Of a stretch of 64,000 nucleotides of DNA, positions 8,657 to 34,744 are shown one piece after another. A program made the position numbers and the translations under genes. This stretch comes from Oscillospiraceae bacterium. GTDB lineage: Bacteria > Bacillota > Clostridia > Oscillospirales > Oscillospiraceae. Where the stretch lies: NCBI GenBank assembly GCA_910575265.1, contig CAJTEA010000002.1, forward strand, positions 63,503 to 127,502, given 5' to 3'. Each line of letters starts with the position of its first letter. Position 1 is the first letter of the stretch. The notes beneath the pieces are model-generated. The model worked only from the letters and a program-made list of their open reading frames with translations. It was not told the origin of the DNA and searched no databases.

Positions 8657-8668
8657 ATTCCCATCTCC

Positions 8669-9394: not shown

Positions 9395-9412
9395 GGTTTC
9401 CCCTCTCTCACA

Positions 9413-12883: not shown

Positions 12884-12899
12884 GGCGATTCCCTCCTCT

Positions 12900-13202
12900 T
12901 TATTCCAAAAGAGTTTGCATTTCGTGAATAATTTCTTCCTTTTCCTGACCCCATCGAGCTATAAAGCTGTCTAAAAGCAAATACTCCGATACATGTGATA
13001 AAGCCGGGTTGTCCCTGTGCACCATAAGCAGAACGAAAATCATTTCGTAAAACCCCTCCTGGTACAACCGGCCTACCAACTGCTTCAGCATATCCATATT
13101 CATATGTTCTTCATTGGGTGTACAGATTAAGTACCATAGACCGCTGTGATTTCGTATCCATTTTAAAAAGCGAAGAGTTTGAACTGTTCTGTTGCTTTTC
13201 AC
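12900..13202 (-). CDS. Small hypothetical protein between dnaE and whiA
   Basis: A 100-residue product, unrecognised. It begins VKSNRTVQTLRFLKWIRNH and looks mainly alpha-helical, with a leucine/hydrophobic-rich middle (MLKQLVGRLYQEGFYEMIFVLL) and an acidic C-terminal helix. I chose the GTG at 13202, eight bases after AAGGAGG; an upstream in-frame ATG at 13235 has no binding site, and an ATG overlapping the GTG is out of frame. The gene is clearly AT-richer than dnaE and whiA on either side, suggesting later acquisition or a fast-evolving family. It ends 16 bp before dnaE. Confidence 0.6.
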   Translation of the reverse strand: MKSNRTVQTLRFLKWIRNHSGLWYLICTPNEEHMNMDMLKQLVGRLYQEGFYEMIFVLLMVHRDNPALSHVSEYLLLDSFIARWGQEKEEIIHEMQTLLE

Positions 13203-13327
13203 ATTAAATCCCTCCTTAGATACTAATATTAGCATTAAAGGAACGGATTGTATAGAATCACAGTGTTAGCACTCTGCTGGCAAAGCAAAAATTTCCTCGT
13301 CCCCCGCAGGGGCCTTTTGCGTGTGGT

Positions 13328-14215: not shown

Positions 14216-14218
14216 GGG

Positions 14219-15259
14219 TCATTCCTCCAATATATACCGCCTCGCGCCGCGGAAGATGCGCATGGCCCGGCGGCGGTAGACCTCCAGAACGGCCTGGGCC
14301 AGCCGGTCCGGGTCGTGGCGGGCGTAGTTCCCTCCCTCGGACGCCACCGGCCGTTCCACCAGCTCCAGCCCCAGAGCTGCGATCCGGTCCTTGTCCACCG
14401 TCAGGGGAACGGCGTCCTCCTCCCGGTAGCGTTCCTGCAATCCCGCGTCCACCGGGGCGGAGTTGGCCAGACACAGGTCCAGCAGCCCCGGCTCCCCGTG
14501 GGCCAGAAGGGCCTCCAGGTGGTCGGCGGCGGTGTAGCCCTCCGTTTCCCCGTCCTGGGTCATGATGTTGCAGATGTACAGCTTGGGGGCGTCCGACTGG
14601 GCGATGGCCCGGGCCACCCCCTCCACCAGCAGATTGGGAATCACGCTGGTGTACAGGCTCCCCGGCCCCAACAGGATCAGGTCCGCCTCCCCGATGGCCT
14701 CCAGCGCGGCGGGAGTGGCCTTGGGGGTTCGGGGAATCAGGTTCACATGGTGGATCCGGCAGTCCTGCTGTTTTTTAAAATCCGCGATCTGAGACTCGCC
14801 CACCACCCGGGTGTCGTTCTCAAACACGGCCTCAAGCTGTACGTCGGCGCTGGTCACCGGGATCACCCGGCCAGTGATGGCCAGGACGTGGCTCATCTGG
14901 CTCACCGCCGTCTCAAAGGAGCCGGTAATGCCGTTGAGGGCCGCCAGAATCAGGTTTCCGAAGGACTGGCCGGCCAGCACCCCTTCGGGAAAGCGGTAGG
15001 TCAGCAGCCGCTCCATGATGGGCTCGGTGTTGGCCAGGGCCTCCATACAGTGGCGGATGTCCCCCGGCGGCAGGATGCGCAGGTCCTGGCGCAGCGCGCC
15101 GGAACCGCCGCCGTTGTCCGCCACCGTGACGATGGCGGTGAGGTTCTGGGTATATTTTTTCAGCCCCCGCAGCATGGTGGACAGCCCCGTCCCGCCGCCG
15201 ATGGCGACGATCTTCGGGCCCCGCTCCCACTGCTGGAGGGTGGGATATGCTTCACTCAT
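14219..15259 (-). CDS. yvcK: YvcK/CofD-like protein (gluconeogenesis factor)
   Basis: A 346-residue protein starting MSEAYPTLQQWERGPKIVAIGGGTG. GGGTGLSTMLRGLK and VADNGGGSG form the nucleotide-sugar binding region typical of YvcK. B. subtilis YvcK binds UDP-sugars and is needed for growth on gluconeogenic carbon sources and for proper cell-wall synthesis. The ATG at 15259 was chosen over an upstream in-frame start that would overlap rapZ; GAGAGGA precedes it. It sits between rapZ and whiA. Confidence 0.93.
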   Translation of the reverse strand: MSEAYPTLQQWERGPKIVAIGGGTGLSTMLRGLKKYTQNLTAIVTVADNGGGSGALRQDLRILPPGDIRHCMEALANTEPIMERLLTYRFPEGVLAGQSFGNLILAALNGITGSFETAVSQMSHVLAITGRVIPVTSADVQLEAVFENDTRVVGESQIADFKKQQDCRIHHVNLIPRTPKATPAALEAIGEADLILLGPGSLYTSVIPNLLVEGVARAIAQSDAPKLYICNIMTQDGETEGYTAADHLEALLAHGEPGLLDLCLANSAPVDAGLQERYREEDAVPLTVDKDRIAALGLELVERPVASEGGNYARHDPDRLAQAVLEVYRRRAMRIFRGARRYILEE

Positions 15260-15333
15260 CCGTTTTCCTCTCTTCCGGCTCCGGCCAGTCCAATTTGTGC
15301 CGCTCCAATATGTCCAGACTGAACCGCCACCGC

Positions 15334-16197
15334 CTAATTCCGTCCCAGATCCCGGTGGCTCTCGGTCACCGGCCAGCCCTGGGCACGGATTTTCTCCCCC
15401 AGGGCGTGGGCCATGGCCACCGAACGGTGGTGCCCGCCGGTACAACCGATGGAGATAACCAGAGAGGTTTTCCCCTCCTCCTCATACCGGGGCAGCAGCC
15501 AGCCCACCAGATTCCACAGGCGGGTTAAAAACTCCTCCGCCTGACCGTTCTGCCAGACATAGTCCCGCACCCCGGCGTCCAAACCGGTGCGTGGGCGCAG
15601 CTCGGTCACATAGAAGGGGTTGGGCAGAAAGCGGGCGTCGAAAATCAGATCCGCCTCCATGGGCACCCCGTGCTTGAAGCCGAAGGAGGTCACCCGGACC
15701 TCCATCCGGCCCTCCGCCGTCCCCGCCCGGCCGAACATCTGCCGCAGCACCCCTTTCAGCTTGGCGGTGGACAGATTGGTGGTGTTGACAATCTTGTCCG
15801 CCCGTTCCCGCAGGGGGGCGAGCATCCGCCGCTCCAGGGCAATGGCCTCCTCCAGGCTGTCCGCCACCTCGGCCAGGGGATGAGAGCGGCGGCTCTCCTT
15901 ATAGCGCTTGATGATGGCCGCGTCGTCCGCCTCCATAAACAGGATGCGGTAAGGACACCGCAGAACCTCCAGGGCGTCCAGCGCGTGGAACAGGCCGCCG
16001 AAGTTGGTGCCGCCCCGCACGTCTGTGACCAGCGCCACCCGCTGATACTCCCCCGTGCCGTCCATGCCCAGCTCGGCGAATTTGGGAATCAAGGGCGCGG
16101 GCAGATTGTCCACACAGAAGTAGTCCATATCCTCCATAAAGGAGGCCGCTTTGCTCTTTCCCGCTCCGGACAGGCCGGAAATGATGACAAACTCCAT
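15334..16197 (-). CDS. rapZ: RNase adapter / nucleotide-binding protein RapZ (YvcJ)
   Basis: A 287-residue protein: Walker A GLSGAGKSKA at residues 8-17, DNLPAPLIPKF, and a C-terminal domain with IGCTGGHHRSVAMA. It is homologous to B. subtilis YvcJ and E. coli RapZ, the GlcN6P-sensing RNase adapter; in Firmicutes YvcJ has GTPase activity and affects competence. It starts 19 bp after the unknown gene at 16217. Its stop is 74 bp from yvcK, and the gap holds a 30-codon open frame without ATG (see findings). Confidence 0.94.
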   Translation of the reverse strand: MEFVIISGLSGAGKSKAASFMEDMDYFCVDNLPAPLIPKFAELGMDGTGEYQRVALVTDVRGGTNFGGLFHALDALEVLRCPYRILFMEADDAAIIKRYKESRRSHPLAEVADSLEEAIALERRMLAPLRERADKIVNTTNLSTAKLKGVLRQMFGRAGTAEGRMEVRVTSFGFKHGVPMEADLIFDARFLPNPFYVTELRPRTGLDAGVRDYVWQNGQAEEFLTRLWNLVGWLLPRYEEEGKTSLVISIGCTGGHHRSVAMAHALGEKIRAQGWPVTESHRDLGRN

Positions 16198-21047: not shown

Positions 21048-21962
21048 TCATCGGCAATATATTTTTTCTAAGAACCGCGAAAAGACCGCTCCGCTTCGCG
21101 CGATATACTCAGAAAAGCAATTTACCGCGGTCGACAAATCCTGTTTTTGATTCCACATCAGATAAAGCTGTCTGGGAGGTAAATTATTGGCAACTGGTAC
21201 GACTTTTGTATGATATGGAATACCTCCCAGAGGATAAGGTACAAGGGCAACACCGCAGTTGGCCGCTACTAAACTGTCCATAATTAGATCCTGATTCGTT
21301 TCCGCCTTTATCGCGGGATGAATATCCAGTGTACGAAACGCCTCATCAACAAGCTTCCGCAGTTGGCAGTCGGGAGAAAACGCAATAAAGTCTTCTCCAT
21401 CCAGCATGCGCAATTCTACCTCGCCGTACTGGGCGAATCGATGCGTTTCAGAAACTAAAAGAACGATTGGATGCTCGCCGATATACGTTGAGCCAATCTG
21501 AGAATGCTCAATTTTTGTGGAGAACGCCAAATCCACCTTACCGGACAGCAAATGCTCTCGCAGCTGGGCGATTGTGGTCTCCTGATTGAACTGTAAACGC
21601 ACCCCAGCGCGTTTCGTATCCGCCATATAGCGAACCATAATATCCGACGCAAATTGGGCCAGTGACGGCGTACCCGCTATCGTGATCGTTCCTGTATCCG
21701 GACCAGCGGGATCCGCCAGTCTGGATACTCCTGATTCCAGCATTTTCAGCGCTTTTTGAACATAGGGTAAAAAAAGCTGGCCATATTTTGTCAGTTCTAC
21801 ATTGCGGCCCCGTTTTTGGAACAGCTCTACATTCAACTCGCGCTCTAATTCCCGTATAGCGTGGCTGAGGCCAGACTGGCTGGCGCGAGAGATCTCAGCC
21901 GCTTTGGTATAATGCCGCAGTTCAGCAACATTTCTAAAATAGTACAGTTGTCTTAAAGTCAT
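21048..21962 (-). CDS. LysR-family regulator (downstream flank of the quinate/shikimate-like cluster)
   Basis: A 304-residue LysR regulator: helix-turn-helix at 1-60 (MTLRQLYYFRNVAELRHYTKAAE, ASQSGLSHAIRELE) and an effector domain beginning near residue 90 (GTITIAGTPSLAQF). It resembles the CynR/BenM-like group, members of which often sense aromatic or alicyclic acids. It is in the same orientation as the transporter/aro genes and lies 95 bp past the last of them, behind a terminator-like hairpin. It resembles the LysR at 28077 in its first 60 residues, so the two may be paralogues. Confidence 0.88.
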   Translation of the reverse strand: MTLRQLYYFRNVAELRHYTKAAEISRASQSGLSHAIRELERELNVELFQKRGRNVELTKYGQLFLPYVQKALKMLESGVSRLADPAGPDTGTITIAGTPSLAQFASDIMVRYMADTKRAGVRLQFNQETTIAQLREHLLSGKVDLAFSTKIEHSQIGSTYIGEHPIVLLVSETHRFAQYGEVELRMLDGEDFIAFSPDCQLRKLVDEAFRTLDIHPAIKAETNQDLIMDSLVAANCGVALVPYPLGGIPYHTKVVPVANNLPPRQLYLMWNQKQDLSTAVNCFSEYIARSGAVFSRFLEKIYCR

Positions 21963-21999
21963 AATACACCCCCACCATTAAACCTCAGCTATACTGAAT

Positions 22000-22051
22000 A
22001 AGGACCATCAGAGAAGCGCGCGGGCCGAACCCCGCTCCTCTAACGGTCCTT
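22000..22051 (-). terminator. Probable terminator of the transporter/aro operon
   Basis: Minus strand: AAGGACC (22051-22045) pairs with GGTCCTT (22006-22000), extended by TTAGAG/CTCTGA and AGCG/CGCT around a large GC loop. The T-run after it is weak (TTATT), so it may be leaky into the LysR gene. Confidence 0.5.
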
Positions 22052-22056
22052 CTTTA

Positions 22057-22893
22057 TTACTGATGCGCCGCGAAAAATGCCTTCGCGGTTTCCAAACAGC
22101 GGGTCGCGTGTCCCTCCACTCCCAGTTCCTTTATTCGCGCCAAATTAGGCAGCTCAATGGACAGGGGCAGTCCAGGCAGCGCATCTACCATCCCCGCCAA
22201 ATCCATGACGCCTTCTCCGGGATAAAGACGTCCCTCCCGCGCGGTAAAAAGCATCTGTTCATCTTTAATGTTGTCCAGAACCGGGTCGCCGTCTGGGCCA
22301 GCGGGACCGTCACACAGGTGGATAAAGCGGAAATATTTCTTGTCGGCGCGGGCCAGCTCCGCGGCAGTCACACCGGCCCGTCCGGCATGGAGCGTATCTA
22401 CCATGATGTACAGATTGTCAGCGCCTACATTGTCTACCAGGGTAATGGCCTCCTGCAAATTCCGGACGCCGGCCCACGGCAGAAACTCCACGTTGTAGTT
22501 CAGGCCATACCTCTTTGCCATTTCAGCAATACGTCCCACCTGCTCCGTATAAAAAGCGCGGTCACGGGTCCATACACTGCCCAGGACATCGGTGCCATTC
22601 AAAGCGGCGGCACGTTCAAACGCTGGCTCATATTCATCAATGTTCAAATCAGGACGCACACGGGCTAGCTCAATGTCCATCAAGGGAATGTCATACTCCA
22701 GCATCGCCTGTTTTGTCGCCTGAAAGAGTTTCTCGTCCTTATGGAGCAAAAACTCAGGCTCACCGGGCAGGCGCATGGGAATGGTACGCAGACTGACCGA
22801 ATCATAGCCTGCCGTTTTCGCGACGCGGATCTGTTCCATCGGATTGGTACCCGGGATTGTCAGATACGCCAAAGAGTATTTTCTGTCCATCAT
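22057..22893 (-). CDS. Xylose-isomerase-like TIM-barrel enzyme; candidate 3-dehydroshikimate dehydratase
   Basis: A 278-residue protein of the sugar phosphate isomerase/epimerase superfamily. A likely metal-ligand set is visible: Glu in NVEFLPW, Asp and His in MVDTLHAG, His in FIHLCDG and Glu in LSIELPN. AsbF/QuiC-type 3-dehydroshikimate dehydratases belong to this superfamily and make protocatechuate. Its place directly after a 3-dehydroquinate dehydratase and an AroE-like dehydrogenase makes that reaction the best guess, but a sugar or inositol-type epimerase cannot be excluded. Two adjacent ATGs exist (22893, 22890) after GGAAGGAA; the second has the better spacing. It is the last gene of the operon. 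Confidence 0.75.
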   Translation of the reverse strand: MMDRKYSLAYLTIPGTNPMEQIRVAKTAGYDSVSLRTIPMRLPGEPEFLLHKDEKLFQATKQAMLEYDIPLMDIELARVRPDLNIDEYEPAFERAAALNGTDVLGSVWTRDRAFYTEQVGRIAEMAKRYGLNYNVEFLPWAGVRNLQEAITLVDNVGADNLYIMVDTLHAGRAGVTAAELARADKKYFRFIHLCDGPAGPDGDPVLDNIKDEQMLFTAREGRLYPGEGVMDLAGMVDALPGLPLSIELPNLARIKELGVEGHATRCLETAKAFFAAHQ

Positions 22894-22928
22894 ATTCCTT
22901 CCTTCCGTCTGTCTGTGGGCAGGATATA

Positions 22929-23690
22929 TTACAGCGCGTTGTGGATAATCCCAGTGGCGCTGTTAAGCTGCTCCACAGGAATCTGGCCGGGCGCGGAGGC
23001 CTGCCCCACTGTACCGAATGTCATAGCGGAACCGAATACTTCACCGCACAGACGGCTGAGCACACCAGTGGCCGACATGGACATGGTAATAATCGGGCGG
23101 TCCGCGTAGCAGCGGGACATCTCCTCGGTGGCGCTGAGAAGGGTCAATACATCCGCTTTATTCTGGGGCATAACCGCGATCTTGGGCAGGTCAGCCCCCA
23201 TATCCTGCATCTTCCGCAGACGGTAAACCAAATCAGCCTGGGACGGCGTTTTATGAAAGTCATGGTTGGAGCCGACCACTACCTTACCGGCGGCGTGAAT
23301 CGTCTCGATGTTTTGGGACACCACCTGGTCCCCGGAGAAAATTTCCACATCAATCGCGTCAGCGCTGCCGGAGCGCGCCACGGCGGTATTGAGGGCAGTA
23401 TAATCATCCATGGTGATCTCTTTTTCTCCGCCCTCTTTCCGCGTCCGGAAGGTAAACAGGATTGGGGTCTCGCCCAGAACAGCGCGCAGCTGGGCCAGTG
23501 TATCCAGCACCTTTTCGGTATCGAATACATCCTCGTAAAAATCCACCCGCCACTCCACAACATGCAGCGGAATCTCGGCCAGCTCCCTGCCCTTCGCCAG
23601 GATTTCCTCCCGGGTCTTACCCACGATGGGAACGATTACCTTGGGCACACCCGCCCCCACCTCCACGTTTCTCAGCTTGACAGTGTTCAT
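22929..23690 (-). CDS. aroD: Type I 3-dehydroquinate dehydratase AroD
   Basis: A 253-residue class I dehydroquinase that forms a Schiff base with 3-dehydroquinate to give 3-dehydroshikimate. The general-base histidine is in VGSNHDFHKTP and the Schiff-base lysine in LPKIAVMP; VEWRVDFYED holds the substrate-binding Glu and Arg. SMSATGVLSRLCGEVFGSAMT is the C-terminal signature. Start ATG at 23690 after AAGGAAAGGG. It sits 18 bp after aroE and 35 bp before the TIM-barrel gene. Type I enzymes serve either shikimate biosynthesis or quinate breakdown; the transporter neighbours favour breakdown. Confidence 0.93.
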   Translation of the reverse strand: MNTVKLRNVEVGAGVPKVIVPIVGKTREEILAKGRELAEIPLHVVEWRVDFYEDVFDTEKVLDTLAQLRAVLGETPILFTFRTRKEGGEKEITMDDYTALNTAVARSGSADAIDVEIFSGDQVVSQNIETIHAAGKVVVGSNHDFHKTPSQADLVYRLRKMQDMGADLPKIAVMPQNKADVLTLLSATEEMSRCYADRPIITMSMSATGVLSRLCGEVFGSAMTFGTVGQASAPGQIPVEQLNSATGIIHNAL

Positions 23691-23708
23691 ATCCAAAACC
23701 CTTTCCTT

Positions 23709-24572
23709 TTATAACGTAGTGTGTAAAGCATGGTACATAATTTCCGGATCCGCTCGGACCCCGGTCCATAACTCGATTTGCGCCAGGCCCTGATAAATCA
23801 CCATACCCAGCCCATTCAGCGTTTGACAGCCAGCAGCTTCCGCGTCCTCCAAAAAACGGGTCTTTTCTGGATTGTAAATAGCGTCGTAGCACAGCTGGCC
23901 TGGACGCAGCCATGTGCTGTCCGCCGGAGTTTCATTCAGGTGGGGCGCCATACCAAGCCCGGTCAGATTTAAAACCAAGTCCGCTTTCGCTGTCTCCTGG
24001 ACCAGAATGTCCCGCTGGGACATATCCACACCTTGGCACAGGCCTGGGTAACAGCGGTTCAAATCCTCCGCCAGCCGTTGAGCCATACCGTCTAACGCGG
24101 CTATGGTAATTTGCTTCGCCTCTTGTGACGCAAGCTGGAACAGGACCGCTCGGGCCGCCCCCCCAGCTCCATAGGAAAAGATGCGTTTTCCCCGCGCGCA
24201 AAAGCCCCGCTCCACTTCCAGCGAACGGACACTGCCCACACCATCGGTATTGTAGCCTACCAGCTGGCCGTCCCGCATCACAACCGTGTTGCAGGCTCCT
24301 ACCTTCTTTGCCGTATCATCCAGGCGGTCCAGATAGGGCAGCACACATTCCTTGTAGGGCTTGGTCACAGCAAATCCAGCGAAGTTCATCTGCCGGAACC
24401 CATGAATGACACATTCCAGCTGTTCTTTCCGCGGCAGCTCCACCGGAAAATAGTAGTAGTCCAGCCCCAATTCCTCATAAACCTGGTTCTGAATCAGGTA
24501 CGAAACCGACTGCTTCAATGGATATCCCAGCAGCGCGACGAGCTTGGTATCCACCGTAATATGTCTTGGCAT
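23709..24572 (-). CDS. Shikimate/quinate dehydrogenase family protein (AroE-like)
   Basis: A 287-residue AroE-family protein. The substrate lobe begins VALLGYPLKQSVSYLIQN: the usual HSxSP reads QSVSY, keeping both serines but losing His and Pro. The catalytic lysine is in FAVTKPYKE (usually NVTIPxK), the Asn in GACNTV and the catalytic Asp in GYNTDGVG. FSYGAGGAARAV is the NAD(P) Rossmann loop and NGLGMVIYQGLAQIELWTG the C-terminal signature. These substitutions in substrate-facing motifs suggest a paralogue, possibly quinate/shikimate dehydrogenase (YdiB/QuiA role) and not the biosynthetic enzyme. AAGGAGGAAGG precedes the ATG. It is 25 bp after tctA. Confidence 0.88.
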   Translation of the reverse strand: MPRHITVDTKLVALLGYPLKQSVSYLIQNQVYEELGLDYYYFPVELPRKEQLECVIHGFRQMNFAGFAVTKPYKECVLPYLDRLDDTAKKVGACNTVVMRDGQLVGYNTDGVGSVRSLEVERGFCARGKRIFSYGAGGAARAVLFQLASQEAKQITIAALDGMAQRLAEDLNRCYPGLCQGVDMSQRDILVQETAKADLVLNLTGLGMAPHLNETPADSTWLRPGQLCYDAIYNPEKTRFLEDAEAAGCQTLNGLGMVIYQGLAQIELWTGVRADPEIMYHALHTTL

Positions 24573-24597
24573 GATGGTTTCCTTCCTCCTTCGCCCA

Positions 24598-26109
24598 CTA
24601 CACGGAAGCGCGGTTTCTTTCCCGCTTCCGCTTCCAATTTTTATAAAACTCAGTCTGTGTTATAAACAGGAACACCAGCAGGGCACACAGGATAATCGAG
24701 ATCGGACTGGTGAAAATGCTGGCCAGCATACCGGGGATGGAGCCCTCCAGCATGACGCCGCGGCGGTAATTTTCCTCACACAGCTTGGTCAGGATAACGC
24801 CCAGCACAATAGGGGCGATGGGGTAGTTGAAGCGCTTGAGGAAGTAGCCGATCAGGCCAAAGCCAAACATCCAGAAGATATCGTACAGACTGTTGCGGAT
24901 GGCATAGGCGCCGATGACCGATAAAATCAGAATCGTGGGCATCAGGATTCCCTTGGGAATCTCTACAATCTTGGTGAACGCCTTGATTCCGGTCAGTCCA
25001 AAGACCAGCAGGAAGATGGAGGCCAGCAGCAGCGCCGCCACAATGAGCCAGAACAGGTCCGGGGTCTCGTTAATCAGGTTGGGACCGGGACGCAGTCCCT
25101 GGATGGTTAAGGCGCTGATGAGCACGGCGGTCACCGCATCGCCTGGAATTCCCATGGTGAGCATGGGGATAAAGGCTCCGCCAATGGCCGCGTTGTTGGC
25201 GGATTCAGGGGCGATGATGCCCTCTACCGCGCCTTGTCCGAAGGGGGCGCTGGGCTTCTTCACCGAACGCTTGGCCTGGTCATAACTGAGCAGGGCGGCG
25301 ATATCTCCTCCGGCTCCCGGCAGGGCTCCCACCAGAACGCCAATAACAGAGGATTTAATCGTCAGGGGAAGGTACTGGGCGGATTCCTTCCAGGAGGGAA
25401 TAATTTTATCCACCTTTTGCTTGACAGGCTGGGACTTCATGTCCGTAATCTGGCTGAGGGCCTCAGAGGCGCCGAACAGGCCAATCATAGCCACTACATA
25501 GTCCACACCGGAGTTGAGATAGACGATATCGAAGGTAAACCGCTTGACGGCGGTCTGTCCATCGACTCCTACACAGCCCAGAAAAATACCAATGCACCCG
25601 GCAATCAGGCCGAATTTAACGGAACGGCCGCACAGGGACCCCACCATCATCAGGCCCATCAGGGAGAGCATCAGATAGTCAATGGAGTGAAAATTACGGG
25701 CAACCCCAGCCACCACAGGAGCGCAGACCGCCAGGGCGAATACGCCCAGCAAGGTGCCAATCACCGACTGGGAGGTGGCAAGGCCCATGGCCTCCCCCGC
25801 CCGGCCCTGTTTGGCCAATTGATACCCGTCCAAGGCGGTGGCAACCGCGGCGGGAGCGCCGGGGATATTCAAAAGGATCGCGGAGCGGGAGCCGCCAAAC
25901 ACCGAGCCAACGAACACTCCGATCATGACCGCCAGCGCGCTGTGGGTTTCCCACCCAAAGGTAAAGGAGACCAGAAGAGAAACTGCCATCGTTCCGGACA
26001 GCCCGGGAATGGCGCCGACATAGATGCCGGCACAGGTGCCCGCCGCCACCAGAAGGATGAGCCAAGGCTCGCGGATCACTACCGCCATGTAAGATAACGC
26101 TTCCATCAT
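24598..26109 (-). CDS. TctA-family large membrane subunit of a tripartite tricarboxylate transporter
   Basis: A 503-residue protein with about twelve membrane segments. GAIPGLSGTMAVSLL, the conserved VGALPGAGGDIAALLSY and TMGIPGDAVTAVLISAL are the two homologous TctA signature loops. TTT systems use a periplasmic/extracellular binding protein (TctC) and cation-coupled uptake of carboxylates. The ATG at 26109 (second of an in-frame series) follows GAGGTGAAGG. It starts 19 bp after tctB. Substrate unknown; neighbouring aroD/aroE-like genes suggest quinate, shikimate or a related acid. Confidence 0.93.
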   Translation of the reverse strand: MMEALSYMAVVIREPWLILLVAAGTCAGIYVGAIPGLSGTMAVSLLVSFTFGWETHSALAVMIGVFVGSVFGGSRSAILLNIPGAPAAVATALDGYQLAKQGRAGEAMGLATSQSVIGTLLGVFALAVCAPVVAGVARNFHSIDYLMLSLMGLMMVGSLCGRSVKFGLIAGCIGIFLGCVGVDGQTAVKRFTFDIVYLNSGVDYVVAMIGLFGASEALSQITDMKSQPVKQKVDKIIPSWKESAQYLPLTIKSSVIGVLVGALPGAGGDIAALLSYDQAKRSVKKPSAPFGQGAVEGIIAPESANNAAIGGAFIPMLTMGIPGDAVTAVLISALTIQGLRPGPNLINETPDLFWLIVAALLLASIFLLVFGLTGIKAFTKIVEIPKGILMPTILILSVIGAYAIRNSLYDIFWMFGFGLIGYFLKRFNYPIAPIVLGVILTKLCEENYRRGVMLEGSIPGMLASIFTSPISIILCALLVFLFITQTEFYKNWKRKRERNRASV

Positions 26110-26128
26110 AGTGTTTCCTTCACCTCTC

Positions 26129-26671
26129 TTATGGGAAAATGACACTGAACAGCACCCGGAACACGAGAACGATAAACGCCATCACAACGCTTGTCCACAG
26201 GATGTTCTTCAAATAGTTCTTGCGCGTCAGATAACACATGCTGCCATACAGGAACAGCGGAGTCGCGACGTAGAAGCTGATTCCCACCAGCAGCAGGACA
26301 CAGTAGGCCAGAATGGCCCCCAGCATAACCACCACATCTGAGGGCAGCGCGTAGCGCAAGCCCGCCAGCAATTTCTCCTTCACTCCGGACATCCCGGTCA
26401 AGGGGGTATCCAGCTTGAAATTCTCGATTACGGTAAGCAGCGCCATAATCACCCACAGTCCGCTGACAAACAGGGGCAGCGCCGCCGCGGAGGCGATTTT
26501 AGGCTCGCTCATCCGGGACCACAGCTCCAGGGTCAAGCCAAACGCGGCCAGACCGGTCAGCAGCAACACCACAGCAAAAACTTTTTCGCCGGAGGCCAGC
26601 GCGGGCTTGCGCGTTTCCGGCTGGACGGCGCTCTCCTCCTTGCGCTGACTTTCCTTTCGCTCTTCCATCAT
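26129..26671 (-). CDS. TctB-family small membrane subunit of the tripartite transporter
   Basis: A 180-residue protein: a charged, cytosolic N-terminal tail (about 27 residues, rich in Glu, Lys and Arg) followed by four hydrophobic segments, the second starting near SAAALPLFVSGLWVI. This matches the small TctB subunit, which pairs with TctA. GAGGTGAAG lies before the ATG pair. An intercistronic hairpin (26712-26743) separates it from the upstream binding-protein gene. Confidence 0.85.
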   Translation of the reverse strand: MMEERKESQRKEESAVQPETRKPALASGEKVFAVVLLLTGLAAFGLTLELWSRMSEPKIASAAALPLFVSGLWVIMALLTVIENFKLDTPLTGMSGVKEKLLAGLRYALPSDVVVMLGAILAYCVLLLVGISFYVATPLFLYGSMCYLTRKNYLKNILWTSVVMAFIVLVFRVLFSVIFP

Positions 26672-26711
26672 ATTGAATCTTCACCTCGATTAAAATGTTG
26701 ATTTCGCGCGA

Positions 26712-26743
26712 AAGCGGCGCAAGGCTGAAGCCCTGCGCCGCTT
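26712..26743 (-). promoter_or_regulatory. Intercistronic hairpin between tctC and tctB
   Basis: AAGCGGCGCAGGGC and GCCTTGCGCCGCTT (minus strand, 26743-26730 and 26725-26712) form a 14-bp stem with one G-U pair and a 4-base loop. No T-run follows. Such hairpins after binding-protein genes commonly stabilise the upstream message and lower downstream expression; here that role is inferred. Confidence 0.7.
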
Positions 26744-26754
26744 ATCGTTCGCGG

Positions 26755-27786
26755 TCAGCTCAGAGCACCGCTGTTTTTCAACGCGTTGACCGTGTTTTCG
26801 CGCCAGGATGTAATGTAATCCGCGGCTTCGCTTCCGGTGTAGCCAAGGAAGTTGATGTTGAAGTTGGCTAACACTTCCTGATAGCTGGGGTCTGTGCCCA
26901 CCGCCTTGAAAGCGCTGCCCAGAGTTTCCGTGATCGAGGCGTCAGTGCCCTCCTTCACAAAGATACCGTAGAAGGGACCCCAGGGGAGATACTTGCTGAA
27001 ATCGGGATACTCAGCAGTGATCAGCGGAACCTCCGGCATAATCTCCACCGGCGCCTCGGACAGCAGGCAGAGGAATTTGATATCTCCGGCCTTGTAATCC
27101 TCAATGCCGGACTGGACCTTACATACGGTGAAATCACACTCGCCGCTCATCACCGCGGTTTTGGCGGAGGCATCACTGTCATAGGGGATTTGATTGAACG
27201 TCGCGCCGGTGATGTCGGTAATGAACGCGCCGACTTCCCAGGGCAGGCCTCCGGTGCCGGTGGTGGACAGCTTGACGCTGTTGGGCGCGGCCAGAGCGGC
27301 ATCCACAATTTCAGTGAAGCTGGCATATTTGGAGTCCTTGCTCACAATGATACCCACCACTTCGTCGCCAATGAGATAGACACAGTCGAAGTTGTCATAG
27401 GTCAGCTGGCTGATTTCCAGTACGTCATAGAGGGCGGGATTTTCCGCGCCCATCAGCAAATTGTAACCGTCCGTATTCGCATCATAGACATACTGGGTTG
27501 CCACAGAGCCGGTGGCGCCGGTCATGTTCTGGATAACGATGGATTTGCCCAGTTGCTGCTCCGCCAGCGCGGCCAGAGGGCGCATCAGGGAATCCGTCCC
27601 GCCGCCAGCCCCCCACTGGACAATTCCATTTACGTTTTGGGTGGGATAGGTCCCGGCGGGCGCAGGCTGAGAGGTGCTTCCTCCGTTGGAACCAGAGCCG
27701 GATTTGGAGGGCTCTCCGCCTCCGGAACAGGCGGCCAGGGAGAGGGCCATACACAAAGCCAAAGCCGCGGCAATCATTTTTTTCAT
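26755..27786 (-). CDS. TctC-family substrate-binding lipoprotein of the tripartite transporter
   Basis: A 343-residue secreted lipoprotein: signal peptide MKKMIAAALALCMALSLAA with lipobox LAAC (Cys20), a Gly/Ser-rich linker (to about residue 42), and a TctC/Bug domain. The latter has VNGIVQWGAGGGTDSLMRPL, NMTGATGSVATQYVYDANTDG and STTGTGGLPWEVG, which form the carboxylate-binding loops of the family. It would capture the substrate outside the cell. It is the first gene of the operon, with AATGAGGAGG before the ATG. An extended -10-like TGGTATATT lies about 55 bp upstream. Confidence 0.93.
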   Translation of the reverse strand: MKKMIAAALALCMALSLAACSGGGEPSKSGSGSNGGSTSQPAPAGTYPTQNVNGIVQWGAGGGTDSLMRPLAALAEQQLGKSIVIQNMTGATGSVATQYVYDANTDGYNLLMGAENPALYDVLEISQLTYDNFDCVYLIGDEVVGIIVSKDSKYASFTEIVDAALAAPNSVKLSTTGTGGLPWEVGAFITDITGATFNQIPYDSDASAKTAVMSGECDFTVCKVQSGIEDYKAGDIKFLCLLSEAPVEIMPEVPLITAEYPDFSKYLPWGPFYGIFVKEGTDASITETLGSAFKAVGTDPSYQEVLANFNINFLGYTGSEAADYITSWRENTVNALKNSGALS

Positions 27787-27842
27787 ACAGGTTCCTCCTC
27801 ATTTTGGTTTAGTTTTGTGCTATTCGCAAAGTTGATGGTTGA

Positions 27843-27934
27843 AATATACCATATTGCTGTGCAAAGTGTCCAATTCTTTTCTTGAATTTGTTCATTACGG
27901 GTCATTGCATGATAATATGTATTTTCCGCATGAT
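27843..27934 (-). promoter_or_regulatory. tctC promoter region with a GCATGAT direct repeat
   Basis: A -10 candidate TATATT (27848-27843), preceded by TGG, points at tctC; TTGGAC lies 19 bp upstream. Two GCATGAT copies (27907-27913 and 27928-27934, plus-strand reading) are exactly 21 bp apart, two helical turns, at about -70 to -98. They may bind one of the flanking LysR proteins. Confidence 0.4.
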
Positions 27935-27990
27935 TCCATAAAATGTTTGAGATTTACAGTCTGACCGGCTAAAACGCAATTTCAGGAGCA

Positions 27991-28037
27991 AAAAAAGGTG
28001 CGAAGAATGGTCAAAATGACAATTCTTCGCACCTTTT
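27991..28037. terminator. Terminator between the LysR gene (28077) and the tct operon
   Basis: A-rich AAAAAAGGTGCGAAGAAT (27991-28008) pairs with ATTCTTCGCACCTTTTT (about 28021-28037) around a 12-base loop, with A/T runs on both sides. Read on the minus strand it ends the LysR gene 40 bp earlier; it can work both ways. Confidence 0.8.
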
Positions 28038-28076
28038 TATTGCTATATCTTGCGCGCCTCATTCCACCGGTCCGCT

Positions 28077-28994
28077 TCAATTTACGCAGTCGACCTGCTG
28101 GCGGCGAAATTCGTCGAACAGTCCAGGCTGGTTAATTACATAATCCCGGAACCGGCATATTGCCGGGGAAATATATTTTACATCCTTCCATTTCAGATAA
28201 ATTTCATGGCCCGGAATATCGTTCTCAATCCGAAGCAGTTTTATGTTGTAATGCTGTTCGCTGAGCGGAGCCGGAGCAAGCGCCAGACCAAGATTCGCCG
28301 CCACAGAACCAAAGATCATCGTATCGTGTATGGTTTCCAGCTTAATCCGGGGGCTTACCCGCAAAGATTTCAAGATGTCATCAATCAAATCCCGGATAGA
28401 ACATTCTGTTTTGTAGGCAATAAAATTTTCTCCGTCAATATCCCGCAGATCCACAGAATCTTGCTTTGCCAGAGGATGGTCGTTCGATACCAGCAGGGTC
28501 AGTTCATGATTGCCCAGCTTATGTGTTTTTAAGCCAGCCGCTTCGTCATACAGCATTCCAAGCCCCAAATCGGCCTCTCCAGAGAGAAGATGGCTTTGTA
28601 TGCGGATATTCGTATCCTGCTGGAGCTGGAATGTAGTCTGAAAGCCGGTATCCTGGAAATACCTGGCCAGCAAATAGGAGATAAACGGATCAATCGAGCT
28701 GACATAGTGCAGGGAGACGGTTCCTTGTTCTGGTGATATAAAATCATTCAGCTTGATTTGTCCCTCATCTAAAATGGCGAGAGCCTGGTCAACATATTCT
28801 AAAAACAGCTGGCCGTATTTTGTCAATGTGATTTGACGATTGTCACGATTAAACAGGCTAATGCCCAGTTCAGACTCCAGATCATTGATGGAATGACTCA
28901 GACTGGGCTGAGCTACCATCAGCTTGACCGACGCCTTGGTAAAATGCTTTACCTCGGCCAAGGTTCGAAAATAGTATAACTGCTGTAAATTCAT
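28077..28994 (-). CDS. LysR-family regulator (upstream flank of the quinate/shikimate-like cluster)
   Basis: A 305-residue LysR regulator, MNLQQLYYFRTLAEVKHFTKAS at its N-terminus, with helix-turn-helix at 1-60 (VAQPSLSHSINDLESELG) and an effector domain from about residue 90 (GTVSLHYVSSIDPF). I used the ATG at 28994, preceded by a GGGGAAAG stretch; an upstream in-frame start at 29021 has no site. It lies directly upstream of tctC in the same orientation but is separated from it by a terminator, so it probably acts on the tct-aro promoter. It is related to the LysR at 21048. Confidence 0.88.
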   Translation of the reverse strand: MNLQQLYYFRTLAEVKHFTKASVKLMVAQPSLSHSINDLESELGISLFNRDNRQITLTKYGQLFLEYVDQALAILDEGQIKLNDFISPEQGTVSLHYVSSIDPFISYLLARYFQDTGFQTTFQLQQDTNIRIQSHLLSGEADLGLGMLYDEAAGLKTHKLGNHELTLLVSNDHPLAKQDSVDLRDIDGENFIAYKTECSIRDLIDDILKSLRVSPRIKLETIHDTMIFGSVAANLGLALAPAPLSEQHYNIKLLRIENDIPGHEIYLKWKDVKYISPAICRFRDYVINQPGLFDEFRRQQVDCVN

Positions 28995-29142
28995 GCCGTC
29001 TTTCCCCGCTCTTTTTTGCAAATTTGCCCAAAAACTGATTTTAATATATCATGTTGTGTCAAATCGGTCAAGGTGTTTTCTCGGAGCTGGTATAAGTTTC
29101 ATGTCAGGCTGCCGTTCTCCCGCCAGCGATACTCCTTGGATA

Positions 29143-30513: not shown

Positions 30514-30818
30514 TTTTCCGCTACCTCTCTATTGAAAATCTTTTTCCAGGACAACCATACAGTAATTAAGGAGATTACGCCAGATAGCCCGTCACTGAAG
30601 GGACCAGCCCAGAGAACCCCTTCCACACCCATAAAATATCCAAAAATCAACATCGCCGGAATCAAGAAAATAATCTGCCGGGACAATGAGAGCAGCGTGG
30701 CGGGAACGGGCTTGCCGATGGCTTGGAAGAAAATCCCGGTGACAGCTCCGGCAGGGATCAGGAAGCAGGCCAGCAAATAAACCCGGAAGCATTTTACCGC
30801 AAACTCTATGTACAGTTC
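30510..30818 (-). pseudogene. Truncated MATE-family efflux transporter, C-terminal part only
   Basis: From about 30818 to the stop at 30510 the minus strand encodes FAVKCFRVYLLACFLIPAGAV, IFFQAIGKPVPATLLSLSRQ and ending FNREVAEK, the last three membrane segments of a MATE-type multidrug exporter. The preceding nine or so segments are missing: upstream the sequence switches abruptly into the adhesin gene in a different frame. It is a break point left by an insertion or deletion. Confidence 0.75.
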
Positions 30819-33800
30819 CGTCCGCGTACATGACCTTGAACTCGGCGTTCTGGAGGGTCACGCTGGGGTTGGTGGCGCAGACCTTCCGAATGAGCAGGAT
30901 GCCGTCCGGGGCGTTGTCGAAAGAGACCGTGATCACGTTCTGCTCACCCTTGTCGGAGATATAGACGGTCTCGGAGGCATTGATGATGCTGTACCCGTCC
31001 GCCGGGTCGATCTCCTCCACGATATAGGTGCCGGCAGTCAGCCCGGTCCAGATGGCGGTCCCGTTCTTGCCCGTCACCTTCGTGCCGATGACCGTGCCGC
31101 CAGTGCCGCTGGTCCCGCCCAGATATTTCAGCTGGAAGGTGCAGCCGGGTAGGGCCTCGTGGGTCACACTGTCATACTTCTCCACCACGATGGCGTTTAA
31201 CGGCTCATTGAAAAAAGTCAGGGTTTTGCTCTCGCCGCCATGGAGGATCACCTTCTGGGTGAGAGGCTCTTTCATCTGATATCCGGGAGCAGGCTCCACC
31301 TCAGTCACGGTGTATTCGCCGGGGTACAGCTTCTTGCCTTTCTCATGGAGCTTGATCTGGCCGCTGGCATCCGTGACGAAGATACCAAAGTCCATGGAGG
31401 CGGGAGCGCCCGCAGCCTCACCATTGCTGGTGTAGGTCACACGGAACTTGGCGCCCTCGATGGGAGCGCCGGCCACGCTGTCCTCCTTGAAGATGGTCAG
31501 CTCCGGGGTCTTGTGGTTGCGGAACACCACCGTCTTTTCATCGCCGGGGTTCAGAGAGATGGTCTGCACCCGGTCCGCGTCCTTATCCGGGAGGTAGTAG
31601 GGCGCGGGGACGGATTTCTCCGTGATGCGGTAGGTTCCGGGGTCAACACGCAGAGCCACTGTGCCGTCCGGCCCGGTTCTCCAGTCATCCTTGTAGTCGC
31701 TGTCGATCCCCTCCACGGTGAGGACGGTGCCGGGGACAGGCACTCCGGTATCGGCGTCAATCTTGGAGAGGGTCAGCAGGGGCTTCTTGCTGTTTTTGAA
31801 GATCAGGGTCTTATCATCGCCGCCGTTCAGGCTGATGGTCTGGGTCCGGTCAGCCTCGTCCTCCGGCAGACAATAGGGTTCGGGGACGGACTTCTCCGTC
31901 ACCCGGTAGCTGCCGGGGGCAACGCGCAGAGTGGCGAAGCCGTCCGCCTCGGTGGTCACATCCTGGCGGTAGTCGCTGTCGATGCCCTCCACGGTGAACA
32001 CCGTGCCGGGAATGGGGGTGTTGGCCCCCTGCTCTACCTTGGAGATTTTCAGGACAGGCTGCTTCAGGTTGTCAAAGACCAGCTCCTTGCTGTCTCCGGC
32101 CCCCAGCCAGATCGTCTGTGTGGGTTCGTCTCCCACCACATAGGGATCAGGGACGGACTTTTCCGTCACCTCGTAGCTATCCACAGGAATATTGGATAGG
32201 ACCGCCCTGCCGTCCGGCCCGGTGGTCACATCGTTGTGGTAGCCGTAATGGATGCCGCGGATTTCAAAATGGGTGTTGGGGATCACATCCCCGGTCTGCG
32301 CGTCCCGCTTGAGAATAGTGAGGCTGGGCAGCCGCTTGTCCGCCGCTGTGACGGTGACTGTGCCGCCGCCGTTGATGGTGGCCTGATCCACATGGGCAAT
32401 CACAGGCTCAGTCAGCGCGGCGTAGGGGGCGGGGGCGGACACCTCCACGAAGGCGTACATCCCCTCGGTCACATCGGTGACAGTGATGGAGCCGTCTGCT
32501 TTCGTCTCCTCTGTGCCGATGATCTGGCCATCTTTCACGATGTTGAACACAGCGCCGGGGAGAGGGTTATCAGAATCGTCTTTTTTGATAAGACGTACCT
32601 TCACCTTGGCGTCATTCTCGAACACCAGAGCAATGTCAGTTTTGCCGTCCCAGACAAAGGTCTGCTTGGTTTTATTGACGTCCAGGCTTTTGGTGTAGCC
32701 CTCCGGGGGTGTGACCTCCTCGGCGGTAAAGCTGCCCAGGGGCATATCTTTCCAAGGCACATCGGTGAGGTATCCGCCCGCGCCGGTGATGAAAGTTCCA
32801 GTAAAATCGTTGTCCACACCCTCGATTTTAATGACCGCCCCGGCGAGGCCCCTGGTGGGATTGTCCGCGTCTACTTTGCGGATGCTGCCCTCACCAGTAA
32901 TCTCAGGCGTATCAGAAAAGGTGACCGTCACAGTTTTATCGCTGCCGCTGGGCAGAACAACATACTGCGGCCCAGGATTGTCGATCTCATAGGACTCCGG
33001 AGGCTCCAATTCAGTCACGGCGTAAGTGCCGGCCTCCAAATTGGGTACGGTCACAGTGCCGTCGCTGCCTGTCACCACTTCCTTGGAGTAGGCGCCATTT
33101 TCAGAGGCAACGAGGAACCGCGCTCCGGGCAGAGTCTTGTTGGGATTGGTGGAATCCACCTTCTTGACCGTCAAGCTGTACTTTTCGCGGGTGACATTCA
33201 GCTCTCCCACCATGACGGCCTGCACATCATTGGAGGGGTGGTAGCTGGAGCCAGGGCCTGTGTAGGCGTACTCATAGACCTCGCAATCGCCCCATACGCC
33301 CTGCGCGCCCAGGTCGAGGATATACTGCGCCCGGTCCCGGAACGATCTGCCGTCCATAGTCTCGTCAATACTGGAATAATTGGTGTGTTCCAGATTGTTG
33401 TAGACGCACAGCAGTTCCTCTGCACAGGCCACCACGGGGTCGGACAGCAGACCGGCCTTGTACCGCCAGACGACAGCCTGCGTCCAGGAATTCATGGTCC
33501 AGGTGTAGTCGCTGTTCCACACATCGTCCACACCCAGGGCCTTGGCCTGATCGGTGAAGACGCCGGTGGAATGGGCGTAAAAATAGGCCATCATGGTCTT
33601 GACCGTGGGGTCGGAAATGGGCTGGGGATTGCCCCAGGTGTGGCCCTTCAGGGACCAGCCCATCCCTTTTCCTTTTTCGGCACAGAAGCCCATGGTGCTT
33701 TTGCCGTTGTAGTTGAAGTGCATCTGGTGCATATAGCACTCGCCCAGGGCCGGGGAATCGTACTTGGTCCCGCTGTAAGCGCAATCATCCATTTTGATGG

Positions 33801-33906
33801 TGGACGGGTTGGCGGCGAGAGCCGTTGCGGGCAGCAGGCCCAGCACACACACCAGCACCAGCAGCAGAGCCGTCATGCGGGTGAGTGCGGAATAGGTTTT
33901 TCGCAT
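30592..33906 (-). CDS. Surface adhesin with thioester domain and Cna-B/SpaA repeats, 3' end lost at a junction
   Basis: A 1104-residue open frame. Signal peptide about 1-33 (MRKTYSALTRMTALLL...ATALAA). A thioester-like domain follows, with Cys in TMGFCAEKGKG and Gln in SWTQAVVWRY as candidate bond partners. Then come eight complete Cna-B/SpaA-like repeats of about 85-95 residues, each opening with a lysine-bearing strand such as LTVKKVDS, LTILKRDA, LKISKVEQ, LTLSKIDA, LTIFKEDS and closing with a Y.VTE isopeptide motif. A ninth repeat stops at EFKVMYADGT. The last roughly 75 residues (from about 30818) are an out-of-frame reading of the MATE remnant, so the sorting signal is lost and the protein can probably not be anchored. 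AAAGGAG precedes the ATG at 33906. Confidence 0.85.
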   Translation of the reverse strand: MRKTYSALTRMTALLLVLVCVLGLLPATALAANPSTIKMDDCAYSGTKYDSPALGECYMHQMHFNYNGKSTMGFCAEKGKGMGWSLKGHTWGNPQPISDPTVKTMMAYFYAHSTGVFTDQAKALGVDDVWNSDYTWTMNSWTQAVVWRYKAGLLSDPVVACAEELLCVYNNLEHTNYSSIDETMDGRSFRDRAQYILDLGAQGVWGDCEVYEYAYTGPGSSYHPSNDVQAVMVGELNVTREKYSLTVKKVDSTNPNKTLPGARFLVASENGAYSKEVVTGSDGTVTVPNLEAGTYAVTELEPPESYEIDNPGPQYVVLPSGSDKTVTVTFSDTPEITGEGSIRKVDADNPTRGLAGAVIKIEGVDNDFTGTFITGAGGYLTDVPWKDMPLGSFTAEEVTPPEGYTKSLDVNKTKQTFVWDGKTDIALVFENDAKVKVRLIKKDDSDNPLPGAVFNIVKDGQIIGTEETKADGSITVTDVTEGMYAFVEVSAPAPYAALTEPVIAHVDQATINGGGTVTVTAADKRLPSLTILKRDAQTGDVIPNTHFEIRGIHYGYHNDVTTGPDGRAVLSNIPVDSYEVTEKSVPDPYVVGDEPTQTIWLGAGDSKELVFDNLKQPVLKISKVEQGANTPIPGTVFTVEGIDSDYRQDVTTEADGFATLRVAPGSYRVTEKSVPEPYCLPEDEADRTQTISLNGGDDKTLIFKNSKKPLLTLSKIDADTGVPVPGTVLTVEGIDSDYKDDWRTGPDGTVALRVDPGTYRITEKSVPAPYYLPDKDADRVQTISLNPGDEKTVVFRNHKTPELTIFKEDSVAGAPIEGAKFRVTYTSNGEAAGAPASMDFGIFVTDASGQIKLHEKGKKLYPGEYTVTEVEPAPGYQMKEPLTQKVILHGGESKTLTFFNEPLNAIVVEKYDSVTHEALPGCTFQLKYLGGTSGTGGTVIGTKVTGKNGTAIWTGLTAGTYIVEEIDPADGYSIINASETVYISDKGEQNVITVSFDNAPDGILLIRKVCATNPSVTLQNAEFKVMYADGTVHRVCGKMLPGLFAGLLPDPCRSCHRDFLPSHRQARSRHAALIVPADYFLDSGDVDFWIFYGCGRGSLGWSLQ

Positions 33907-33988
33907 AAATAAAACGCTCCTTTCATTTTGGGGAATAAAAAGTGGCCCTCCAGCTTGCGCTGAAAGGCCGTTCCCGGTTTCGATTCTG

Positions 33989-34744
33989 TTACGCATAGAA
34001 GTTGACGCTGTTAGGGATTCCAACGAACATAAAACAGTAGGTAATGCCGTCCACCTGGGTCACGCCCACCCCGATGCAGTCGCAGGCCGGGTCGATCATG
34101 GTCTGGAAATGACCGGGAGAGTTGATCCAGTTGTCCAGGGCGTGTTGGGCGGCATCCTCTGTGCCGGTGAACACGGTGAGGTTATCCCCGAAGCCGTAGG
34201 GGTAGCCTGCGTCGGCGGCAGCTTGACACTCCTCTTGTGAGTGATGCCAGGTATAGCGCCGGTCGGAGCAGACCTGGGCGGCATTCATCAGGGCCTCGCT
34301 GACAGACAGCTCCGACACGCCATTGGCCTTGCGGGTCTGGTTGATCAGACGAATCAGCTCCTGCCGTATCTCCATGTTGTCCGGCTGGATTGCGCTGTCT
34401 GGGCTGGCGGATGCATTGGCGGAGCCGACCGTGAGTGTCAGGGTTCCAGACGCCCCGGCTCGGTTGGCGGCGGTAATCTCTGCGGTTCCCTCCGACTTGG
34501 CGACAGCTACCCAGAAGGTCAGCACCTGCTCCACCGCCACGATATCCGGGGCGCTGGAGGTAACGGTGTACTCCGCACCGCTGGGGCCGATGATGAGGCC
34601 GCTTCGCTCTCCCACCTCCAGGGTACTTCCCTTATAGCTGTTTACCCGGATGGGCTGGGTCTCTGCCGCCTGGGCGGGGACGGCCAACAGGGCTGCGGTC
34701 ATGACGCCAGTCAAAAGCAGGGACACGATTTTTTTGCGTTTCAT
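33989..34744 (-). CDS. Secreted CAP-domain (SCP/PR-1) protein
   Basis: A 251-residue exported protein: signal peptide about 1-27 (MKRKKIVSLLLTGVMTAALLA), a bacterial Ig-like (BIG2-type) segment (about 30-105, EYTVTSSAPDIVAVEQ), and a CAP domain (about 120-251) with LIRLINQTRKANG, SDRRYTWHH, WINSPGHFQTMIDP and GVGVTQVDGITYCFMFVG. CAP proteins are widespread extracellular proteins with ill-defined roles. The gene lies between the adhesin and the sortase in a surface-protein block, with GAGGAA before the ATG. A longer open frame upstream to 34867 is not supported by a binding site. Confidence 0.88.
   Translation of the reverse strand: MKRKKIVSLLLTGVMTAALLAVPAQAAETQPIRVNSYKGSTLEVGERSGLIIGPSGAEYTVTSSAPDIVAVEQVLTFWVAVAKSEGTAEITAANRAGASGTLTLTVGSANASASPDSAIQPDNMEIRQELIRLINQTRKANGVSELSVSEALMNAAQVCSDRRYTWHHSQEECQAAADAGYPYGFGDNLTVFTGTEDAAQHALDNWINSPGHFQTMIDPACDCIGVGVTQVDGITYCFMFVGIPNSVNFYA

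Follow-up and report, generated by a model that had tools for sequence, protein, structure and literature searches.

Gene Content of the Locus

The DNA analysed here (the window) covers 64,000 nucleotides of contig CAJTEA010000002.1 from an Oscillospiraceae bacterium. Between positions 21048 and 29021 it carries eight genes, all open frames on the minus strand, which form a candidate operon with its flanking regulators and which likely serve the catabolic import and oxidation of quinate or shikimate. Domain calls were judged by the curated Pfam cut-offs, and those for aroE, aroD and QuiC by the NCBIfam cut-offs. Upstream of the operon lies a LysR-type regulator (28077..29021, with an ATG at 28994), whose HTH_1 and LysR_substrate domains score above the Pfam cut-off. 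It is followed by the three subunits of a tripartite tricarboxylate transporter (TTT), namely the substrate-binding protein TctC (26755..27786; PF03401, 1.6e-25), the small membrane subunit TctB (26129..26671; PF07331, 35.2 bits against a cut-off of 29.1) and the large membrane subunit TctA (24598..26145; PF01970, 1.6e-147). Next come an AroE-like dehydrogenase, a putative catabolic shikimate/quinate dehydrogenase (23709..24572; PF08501, Shikimate_dh_N, together with SDH_C; TIGR00507), a type I 3-dehydroquinate dehydratase, AroD (22929..23696; PF01487, 2.6e-75; TIGR01093), and a xylose-isomerase-like TIM barrel (22057..22893; PF01261, AP_endonuc_2). A second LysR-type regulator, with LysR domains above the Pfam cut-off, closes the set downstream (21048..21962).

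The intergenic gaps from TctC to the TIM barrel range from −17 to +83 bp, overlaps included, and this spacing appears compatible with a single transcript. A previous reading, made from the sequence only, had described one operon with a full TTT transporter, and the adjacency of TctA, TctB and TctC, all above their Pfam cut-offs, agrees with it. The two bracketing LysR genes were also rightly described as related, GltC being the best model for both, below its cut-off. The downstream one is 62% identical to the LysR of a cluster of TIM barrel, AroE-like and TRAP transporter genes on another contig of the same genome (C5).

Extra Copies of Two Shikimate Pathway Enzymes

The AroE-like protein exceeds the aroE cut-off (TIGR00507: 224.6 bits against 200.2). 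It keeps the lysine of the VTKPYK stretch and the aspartate of YNTDG, both of which we take to be catalytic, as well as the two serines of the S-x-S motif. Its substrate motif, which had been called altered, reads QSVSY: this description fits the usual preceding histidine and following proline, which differ, and does not fit the serines, which are both kept. In the C5 and C15 paralogues the motif is QSFAA, which lacks the second serine, and S-x-A replaces S-x-S in 55 of 65 aligned AroE-like rows. An AroE-like protein of Lawsonibacter asaccharolyticus (P0145) is 68% identical to that of the window and has the QSVSY motif too. The type I dehydroquinase assignment proved sound (TIGR01093: 240.1 bits against a cut-off of 139.3), and the SNHDFHKTP and LPKIAVMPQ stretches of the protein agree with those of solved dehydroquinases in the alignment. 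This enzyme probably interconverts dehydroshikimate and dehydroquinate.

The organism's genome (3.61 Mb, 96% complete) holds four AroE-type and two AroD-type genes. An aro operon located elsewhere on the same contig contains aroB, aroA, aroC, aroE fused to aroK, and aroD; the aroD and aroE–aroK genes lie behind prephenate dehydrogenase, dehydroquinate synthase, EPSP synthase and chorismate synthase domains. The catabolic proposal hinged on the presence of a second aroE and aroD in the genome, and both are indeed found, beside aroB, aroA and aroC. Given this separate operon, the aroE-like and aroD copies of the window appear to be extra rather than biosynthetic ones. The AroE-like protein is 31.7% identical to the AroE–AroK fusion. 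The two AroD proteins encoded in the genome are 63% identical, which would suit a set of ordinary aromatic biosynthesis genes; such a role is nevertheless highly improbable, considering the linkage of the window copies to transporter and LysR genes, and it was rejected since the second aro operon rules against it.

The combination of an AroE-like gene with a TIM barrel gene occurs at three sites in this genome, with the TTT transporter in the window and with TRAP transporters on contigs C5 and C15. The C15 module (8109-15666 of locus L008) also contains a Gfo/Idh dehydrogenase, an aldo/keto reductase and an IolO-like TIM barrel, and its QuiC-like TIM gene is readable in frame only in part (residues 158-273 of the window TIM barrel are matched). 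A gene for a thiamine diphosphate (ThDP) enzyme lies directly behind the C5 module, and its product is 74% identical to the ThDP enzyme of a relative (locus L080). About 1 kb past it, with one small gene between, comes an acylating aldehyde dehydrogenase gene. A gene for a protein resembling 3-hydroxy-3-methylglutaryl-CoA (HMG-CoA) lyase is found on contig C1, 65% identical to the lyase of locus L080.

Conserved Company of the TIM Barrel

TIM loci were collected in named genomes through a scan with two short peptide patterns derived from an alignment, which passes over distant relatives, and the best 80 of 103 loci were retained; a few of them share a genome (for example L062 and L063). Neighbouring genes were defined as open frames, up to 9 kb on each side and often less at contig ends, compared with reference proteins, with identity thresholds of at least 45% for HMG-CoA-lyase-like, 50% for ThDP and 40% for acylating aldehyde dehydrogenase proteins. 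Representatives of these three partners were identified by Pfam and NCBIfam. The 80 loci belong to Oscillospiraceae, Lachnospiraceae, other Clostridia, Tissierellia and Synergistota, many of them from gut or rumen. An AroE-like gene lies near the TIM gene at 59 of them, an HMG-CoA-lyase-like gene at 56, TRAP DctM at 50, the ThDP gene at 31, the acylating aldehyde dehydrogenase gene at 27, aroD at 10 and tctA at 3. Of the trio formed by the ThDP, aldehyde dehydrogenase and lyase genes, 66 of the 80 loci have one or more, 21 all three and 14 none; where the TIM barrel is at least 70% identical to that of the window, 32 of 43 loci carry at least one of them. The type I dehydroquinase accompanies the AroE-like protein and the TIM barrel in the window operon, at L015 and at several Synergistota loci.

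Within the genus, the TIM, AroE, TRAP, ThDP, aldehyde dehydrogenase and lyase genes form a single cluster at two loci (L129 and L133). At two others (L121 and L125), a TIM barrel 74-80% identical to that of the window stands beside the lyase, AroE, TRAP and ThDP genes, in the place of the C5-type TIM barrel. In Pseudoflavonifractor phocaeensis An858, the strain that carries L133, a further locus (L124) has ThDP and TIM genes adjoining tctC and tctA. The full set thus occurs in cultured bacteria, P. phocaeensis An858 and Lutispora thermophila DSM 19022 (L083), and cultured [Clostridium] aminophilum DSM 10710 (L023) has the TIM, AroE, TRAP and ThDP genes. The module lyase scores above an HMG-CoA lyase subfamily cut-off (NF004283: 308.1 bits against 246), and its RDGxQNE and GGC stretches are mostly kept in the alignment of the family. 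The GSGC stretch of the acylating aldehyde dehydrogenase is present in 28 of 28 aligned sequences. All these stretches are presumably catalytic.

Co-occurrence was examined in 61 genomes of the genus, including the organism's own. Presence was set by hand at identities of at least 80% for ThDP, 40% for TIM and 64% for lyase. ThDP fragments were scored as present in G003 (49 residues) and G026 (91 residues, one stop), as were a 61-residue TIM fragment with one stop in G001 and an 83-residue lyase fragment in G046; the 31-33% TIM matches of G027 and G053 and the lyase matches of at most 39% were dropped. On this basis, the TIM gene is present in 15 genomes, the ThDP gene in 21 and the lyase gene in 17. 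All 15 TIM genomes have the ThDP gene (Fisher 7.7e-10) and 14 of them the lyase gene (Fisher 4.3e-10), both values being overstated since related genomes are treated as independent. Every one of the 17 lyase genomes also has the ThDP gene. In the 26 Synergistota genomes examined for this enzyme, the lyase (25) and AroE (24) genes are found at the TIM locus and the ThDP gene never is. Should the ThDP enzyme catalyse an essential step, its gene would therefore have to lie elsewhere; it was found outside the TIM stretch in 26 of 26, with 79-84% identity, in three of them as fragments only.

The ThDP enzymes of the modules are 22-26% identical to two IolD proteins, which are 39% identical to each other, and no IolD model is among the best 25 of 54 NCBIfam matches for two module enzymes. 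A histidine stretch, GLCGHT, is present in 33 of 33 aligned rows, including those of this organism and of Azoarcus, and the family also mostly has CH[LV]GPG and HPHQE (noted at L098:1884-3719). These histidines are missing at the corresponding columns in the five proteins compared, namely the two IolD, Escherichia coli glyoxylate carboligase and two acetolactate-synthase-like proteins of the organism's own genome; IolD does have a histidine within this stretch, a few residues off. Cyclohexane-1,2-dione hydrolase (PDB 2pgn) belongs to the same ThDP superfamily and matches the module enzyme of L080 (3.7e-50), but BbmA and acetolactate synthases match it better; histidines of a similar kind may occur in this hydrolase.

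Fold and Possible Reaction of the TIM Barrel

The metal-ligand set of the TIM barrel was said to be complete, and E136, D166, H192 and E247, which we take to be the ligands by homology, are invariant in a 35-sequence alignment. The structure model (pLDDT 92.9) has 1i60, 2g0w and 5hmq as its nearest folds. As to the kinship with AsbF and QuiC, which was to be checked on such a model, the QuiC-type dehydratase 5hmq, IolI and Lmo2234 are about equally near. AsbF, IolE and sugar epimerases score below these three, the fold being common to epimerases too. A QuiC2 dehydratase class is reportedly named for Listeria in the title of a paper, and Lmo2234 may, at a guess, belong to it. The NCBIfam QuiC model gives 19.5 bits against a cut-off of 1200; since it is a two-domain model of 635 positions, this excludes that type only. 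Fold, metal positions and genomic company together suggest that the TIM barrel may be a dehydratase converting 3-dehydroquinate to a cyclic 1,2-dione.

A Proposed Ring-Cleavage Route

The route outlined here, from the substrate and the transporter specificity to the reactions of the TIM, ThDP, aldehyde dehydrogenase and lyase enzymes, is inferred from the observed genes, families, conserved company and co-occurrence. The TTT transporter would import shikimate and/or quinate, which the AroE-like enzyme would oxidise to 3-dehydroshikimate or 3-dehydroquinate. The dehydroquinase would interconvert these two, so that the aroD gene of the window would give an entry for shikimate. In dehydroquinate, C3 is a ketone, C4 and C5 carry hydroxyls, and C1 bears a carboxyl as well as a tertiary hydroxyl. 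As IolE does on keto-inositol, the TIM barrel might remove the C4 proton and the C5 hydroxyl, to give 1-hydroxy-3,4-dioxocyclohexane-1-carboxylate. The route needs dehydroquinate, since the same dehydration of dehydroshikimate would aromatise it to protocatechuate. The ThDP enzyme encoded on contig C5 could then cleave the C3–C4 bond hydrolytically, with C3 leaving as an aldehyde, and thereby yield homocitrate semialdehyde. The CoA-acylating aldehyde dehydrogenase would convert the latter to homocitryl-CoA (a 3-hydroxy-3-carboxyadipyl-CoA), and a retro-Claisen reaction of the HMG-CoA-lyase-like enzyme would release acetyl-CoA and 2-oxoglutarate. This proposal is modelled on the known reactions of IolE and IolD, of acylating aldehyde dehydrogenases and of HMG-CoA lyase.

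2-Oxoglutarate could be carried on to butyrate by the 2-hydroxyglutarate pathway. An operon of this type is present on contig C8 (L116:2648-12956) of the same genome; it encodes glutaconate CoA-transferase A (1.2e-120 to 1poi), glutaconyl-CoA decarboxylase A (6e-283 to 1pix), an activator, two dehydratase subunits and a sodium-pump decarboxylase subunit. The nearest solved relative of the dehydratase subunits is a 2-hydroxyacyl-CoA dehydratase (5.7e-87), and the gene company suggests their substrate. Two NADH would be made, by the AroE-like enzyme and the aldehyde dehydrogenase, and two used between 2-oxoglutarate and butyrate. By computation, the conversion of quinate to acetate, butyrate and CO2 balances in atoms and electrons (C7H12O6 = C2H4O2 + C4H8O2 + CO2). 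Ring cleavage predicts that the carbon ends in these three products, with no protocatechuate. The whole explanation, comprising import, oxidation and cleavage of the ring to acetyl-CoA and 2-oxoglutarate, is favoured by a narrow balance of probability.

Possibly Related Clusters in More Distant Bacteria

A plasmid of Azoarcus sp. KH32C (L101:18391-25905) carries, in one cluster, aroD, shikimate dehydrogenase, ThDP and citryl-CoA lyase genes, with those for a class III CoA transferase, a TIM barrel and a separate HPPD-like protein. Its ThDP enzyme is 54% identical to that of the organism studied here. On a Streptomyces plasmid, within 18 kb, are found a ThDP enzyme (47%), a citryl-CoA lyase (55% to that of Azoarcus), a CoA transferase (57%), and AroE-like (29%) and HMG-CoA-lyase-like (38%) frames, with no TIM match in this cluster. 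Citryl-CoA lyase and HMG-CoA lyase are different proteins performing the same kind of reaction, the cleavage of a 3-hydroxyacyl-CoA with a tertiary alcohol, and homocitryl-CoA was therefore proposed as the intermediate. Azoarcus and Streptomyces perhaps hold a citryl-CoA-lyase version of the pathway. Ilyobacter insuetus and Propionivibrio limicola are said to grow anaerobically on quinate or shikimate; when the Azoarcus ThDP enzyme was searched against proteins, no Propionivibrio or Ilyobacter name appeared among the 120 matches listed, most of which are nameless.

A plasmid of Paracoccus alcaliphilus (L108:4608-10516, L103) has TctCBA beside a shikimate dehydrogenase, a QuiC-type TIM–HPPD fusion and a LysR regulator. 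In a second set nearby, a TctC-type protein is accompanied by FAD-dependent oxidoreductases and by a TIM barrel that shares 33% identity with that of the window.

Alternative Explanations

The sequence-only reading took the operon as far as protocatechuate. Its first half, the catabolic entry of quinate or shikimate, is upheld by the separate aro operon; its second half is not supported, since the ThDP, aldehyde dehydrogenase and lyase company of the TIM barrel has no place in a route to protocatechuate and is left unexplained by it. A TIM barrel acting as a dehydroshikimate dehydratase, with protocatechuate excreted or used elsewhere, would agree with the closeness of the model to 5hmq and Lmo2234, with the weak QuiC match, with the linkage of AroD and AroE-like genes, and with the P. 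alcaliphilus cluster, where TctCBA, a shikimate dehydrogenase and a QuiC-type fusion stand together; excretion would require no extra enzyme. The oxidation of quinic acid to protocatechuic acid is one of the routes cited in a coffee study, with those to pyrogallol and hexahydrobenzoate (PMC11602726). On the other side, the window-type TIM barrel replaces the C5-type one in the ThDP cluster of L121 and L125. A further route by way of protocatechuate and a UbiD-type decarboxylase was rejected: this enzyme was not found in the organism's own genome, where ring dioxygenases and other protocatechuate users were not searched for, nor in 27 of the 30 TIM-bearing relatives examined, three of which have one. 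The protocatechuate outcome is considered rather unlikely, and less likely than ring cleavage without aromatic intermediates, to which gene company and chemistry point.

It is unlikely to a similar extent that the ring-cleavage logic is right and the substrate is another cyclitol-like or hydroxy acid, the AroE-like and TIM proteins having drifted. The presence of AroD at only 10 of the 80 TIM loci, the prevalence of S-x-A in the aligned AroE-like rows, and the three modules of the genome with TTT or TRAP transporters, one of them with a Gfo/Idh dehydrogenase, would all suit such a drift. A dehydroquinase is nevertheless found with the AroE-like and TIM proteins in the window, at L015, in several Synergistota and in the Azoarcus cluster, and its company ties these to dehydroquinate and dehydroshikimate. 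Several observations weigh against ring cleavage of quinate or shikimate as proposed here. The Azoarcus TIM barrel is hardly related to that of the window (22.5%, E 0.003), which lowers the confidence slightly, and the pair that it forms with the HPPD-like protein looks like a QuiC dehydratase split in two. Within the genus, 6 of the 21 ThDP genomes lack the TIM gene and 4 lack the lyase gene; two of these six are less than 90% complete, but G009 and G026, at 98% completeness, have neither TIM nor lyase, the ThDP gene of G026 being a fragment only. According to the coffee study, plasma quinic acid is higher in carriers of L. asaccharolyticus, which is not simply explained by a quinate consumer (PMC11602726).

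Relation to Known Systems and Significance

The qui, qsu and qa operons leading to protocatechuate similarly combine an AroE-family dehydrogenase, a dehydroquinase, a TIM barrel of the AP_endonuc_2 superfamily, and a dedicated transporter and regulator. They differ from the present modules, which have a TTT or TRAP transporter and ThDP, acylating aldehyde dehydrogenase and HMG-CoA-lyase-like companions. The proposed logic resembles that of myo-inositol catabolism (IolG–IolE–IolD), where a dehydrogenase, a TIM dehydratase of the same superfamily and fold, a ThDP ring-opening enzyme and a CoA-acylating aldehyde dehydrogenase follow one another. Here, in contrast, the dehydrogenase is mostly of AroE type and not of Gfo/Idh type, the lyase is of HMG-CoA type, and the window operon includes a dehydroquinase. 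The transporter has the three subunits of the TctABC systems and differs from them by its putative substrate, a hydroaromatic acid. Next to the operon, at window positions 30592-34023, lies a 1143-residue open frame with eight SpaA repeats (prealbumin-like fold), of surface-protein type.

Coffee and many fruits are rich in quinate, shikimate is an acid common in plants, and the fermentation of hydroaromatic compounds has been known as a phenotype for decades. Among the titles and abstract openings listed from the open-access literature, none reports quinate genes of gut anaerobes. A 2024 study connects L. asaccharolyticus with coffee drinking and with plasma quinic acid, shows that coffee stimulates this species in vitro, reports that the two interact with respect to quinic acid, and describes the enzymes of quinic acid degradation in the gut as mostly unknown (PMC11602726). 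Judged by exact 300-base matches of their contigs, the genomes of the genus studied here include Lawsonibacter sp. metagenome-assembled genomes and P. phocaeensis An858; for L. asaccharolyticus itself, the evidence consists of one AroE-like protein, P0145. The operon and its partners are named candidate genes, in a genus holding Lawsonibacter metagenome-assembled genomes and in cultured strains. It is plausible, at somewhat less than even odds, that they represent an undescribed non-aromatic ring-opening pathway of Clostridia and Synergistota, which would underlie hydroaromatic fermentation genetically and account for some of the response of Lawsonibacter to coffee. If so, a previously undescribed pathway of AroE, TIM, ThDP, aldehyde dehydrogenase and homocitryl-CoA lyase steps would provide candidate genes for this fermentation. 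It would be built like inositol catabolism, with a new TIM-barrel dehydroquinate dehydratase and a new ThDP ring hydrolase, and could help to explain how some gut bacteria live on compounds from coffee and fruits.

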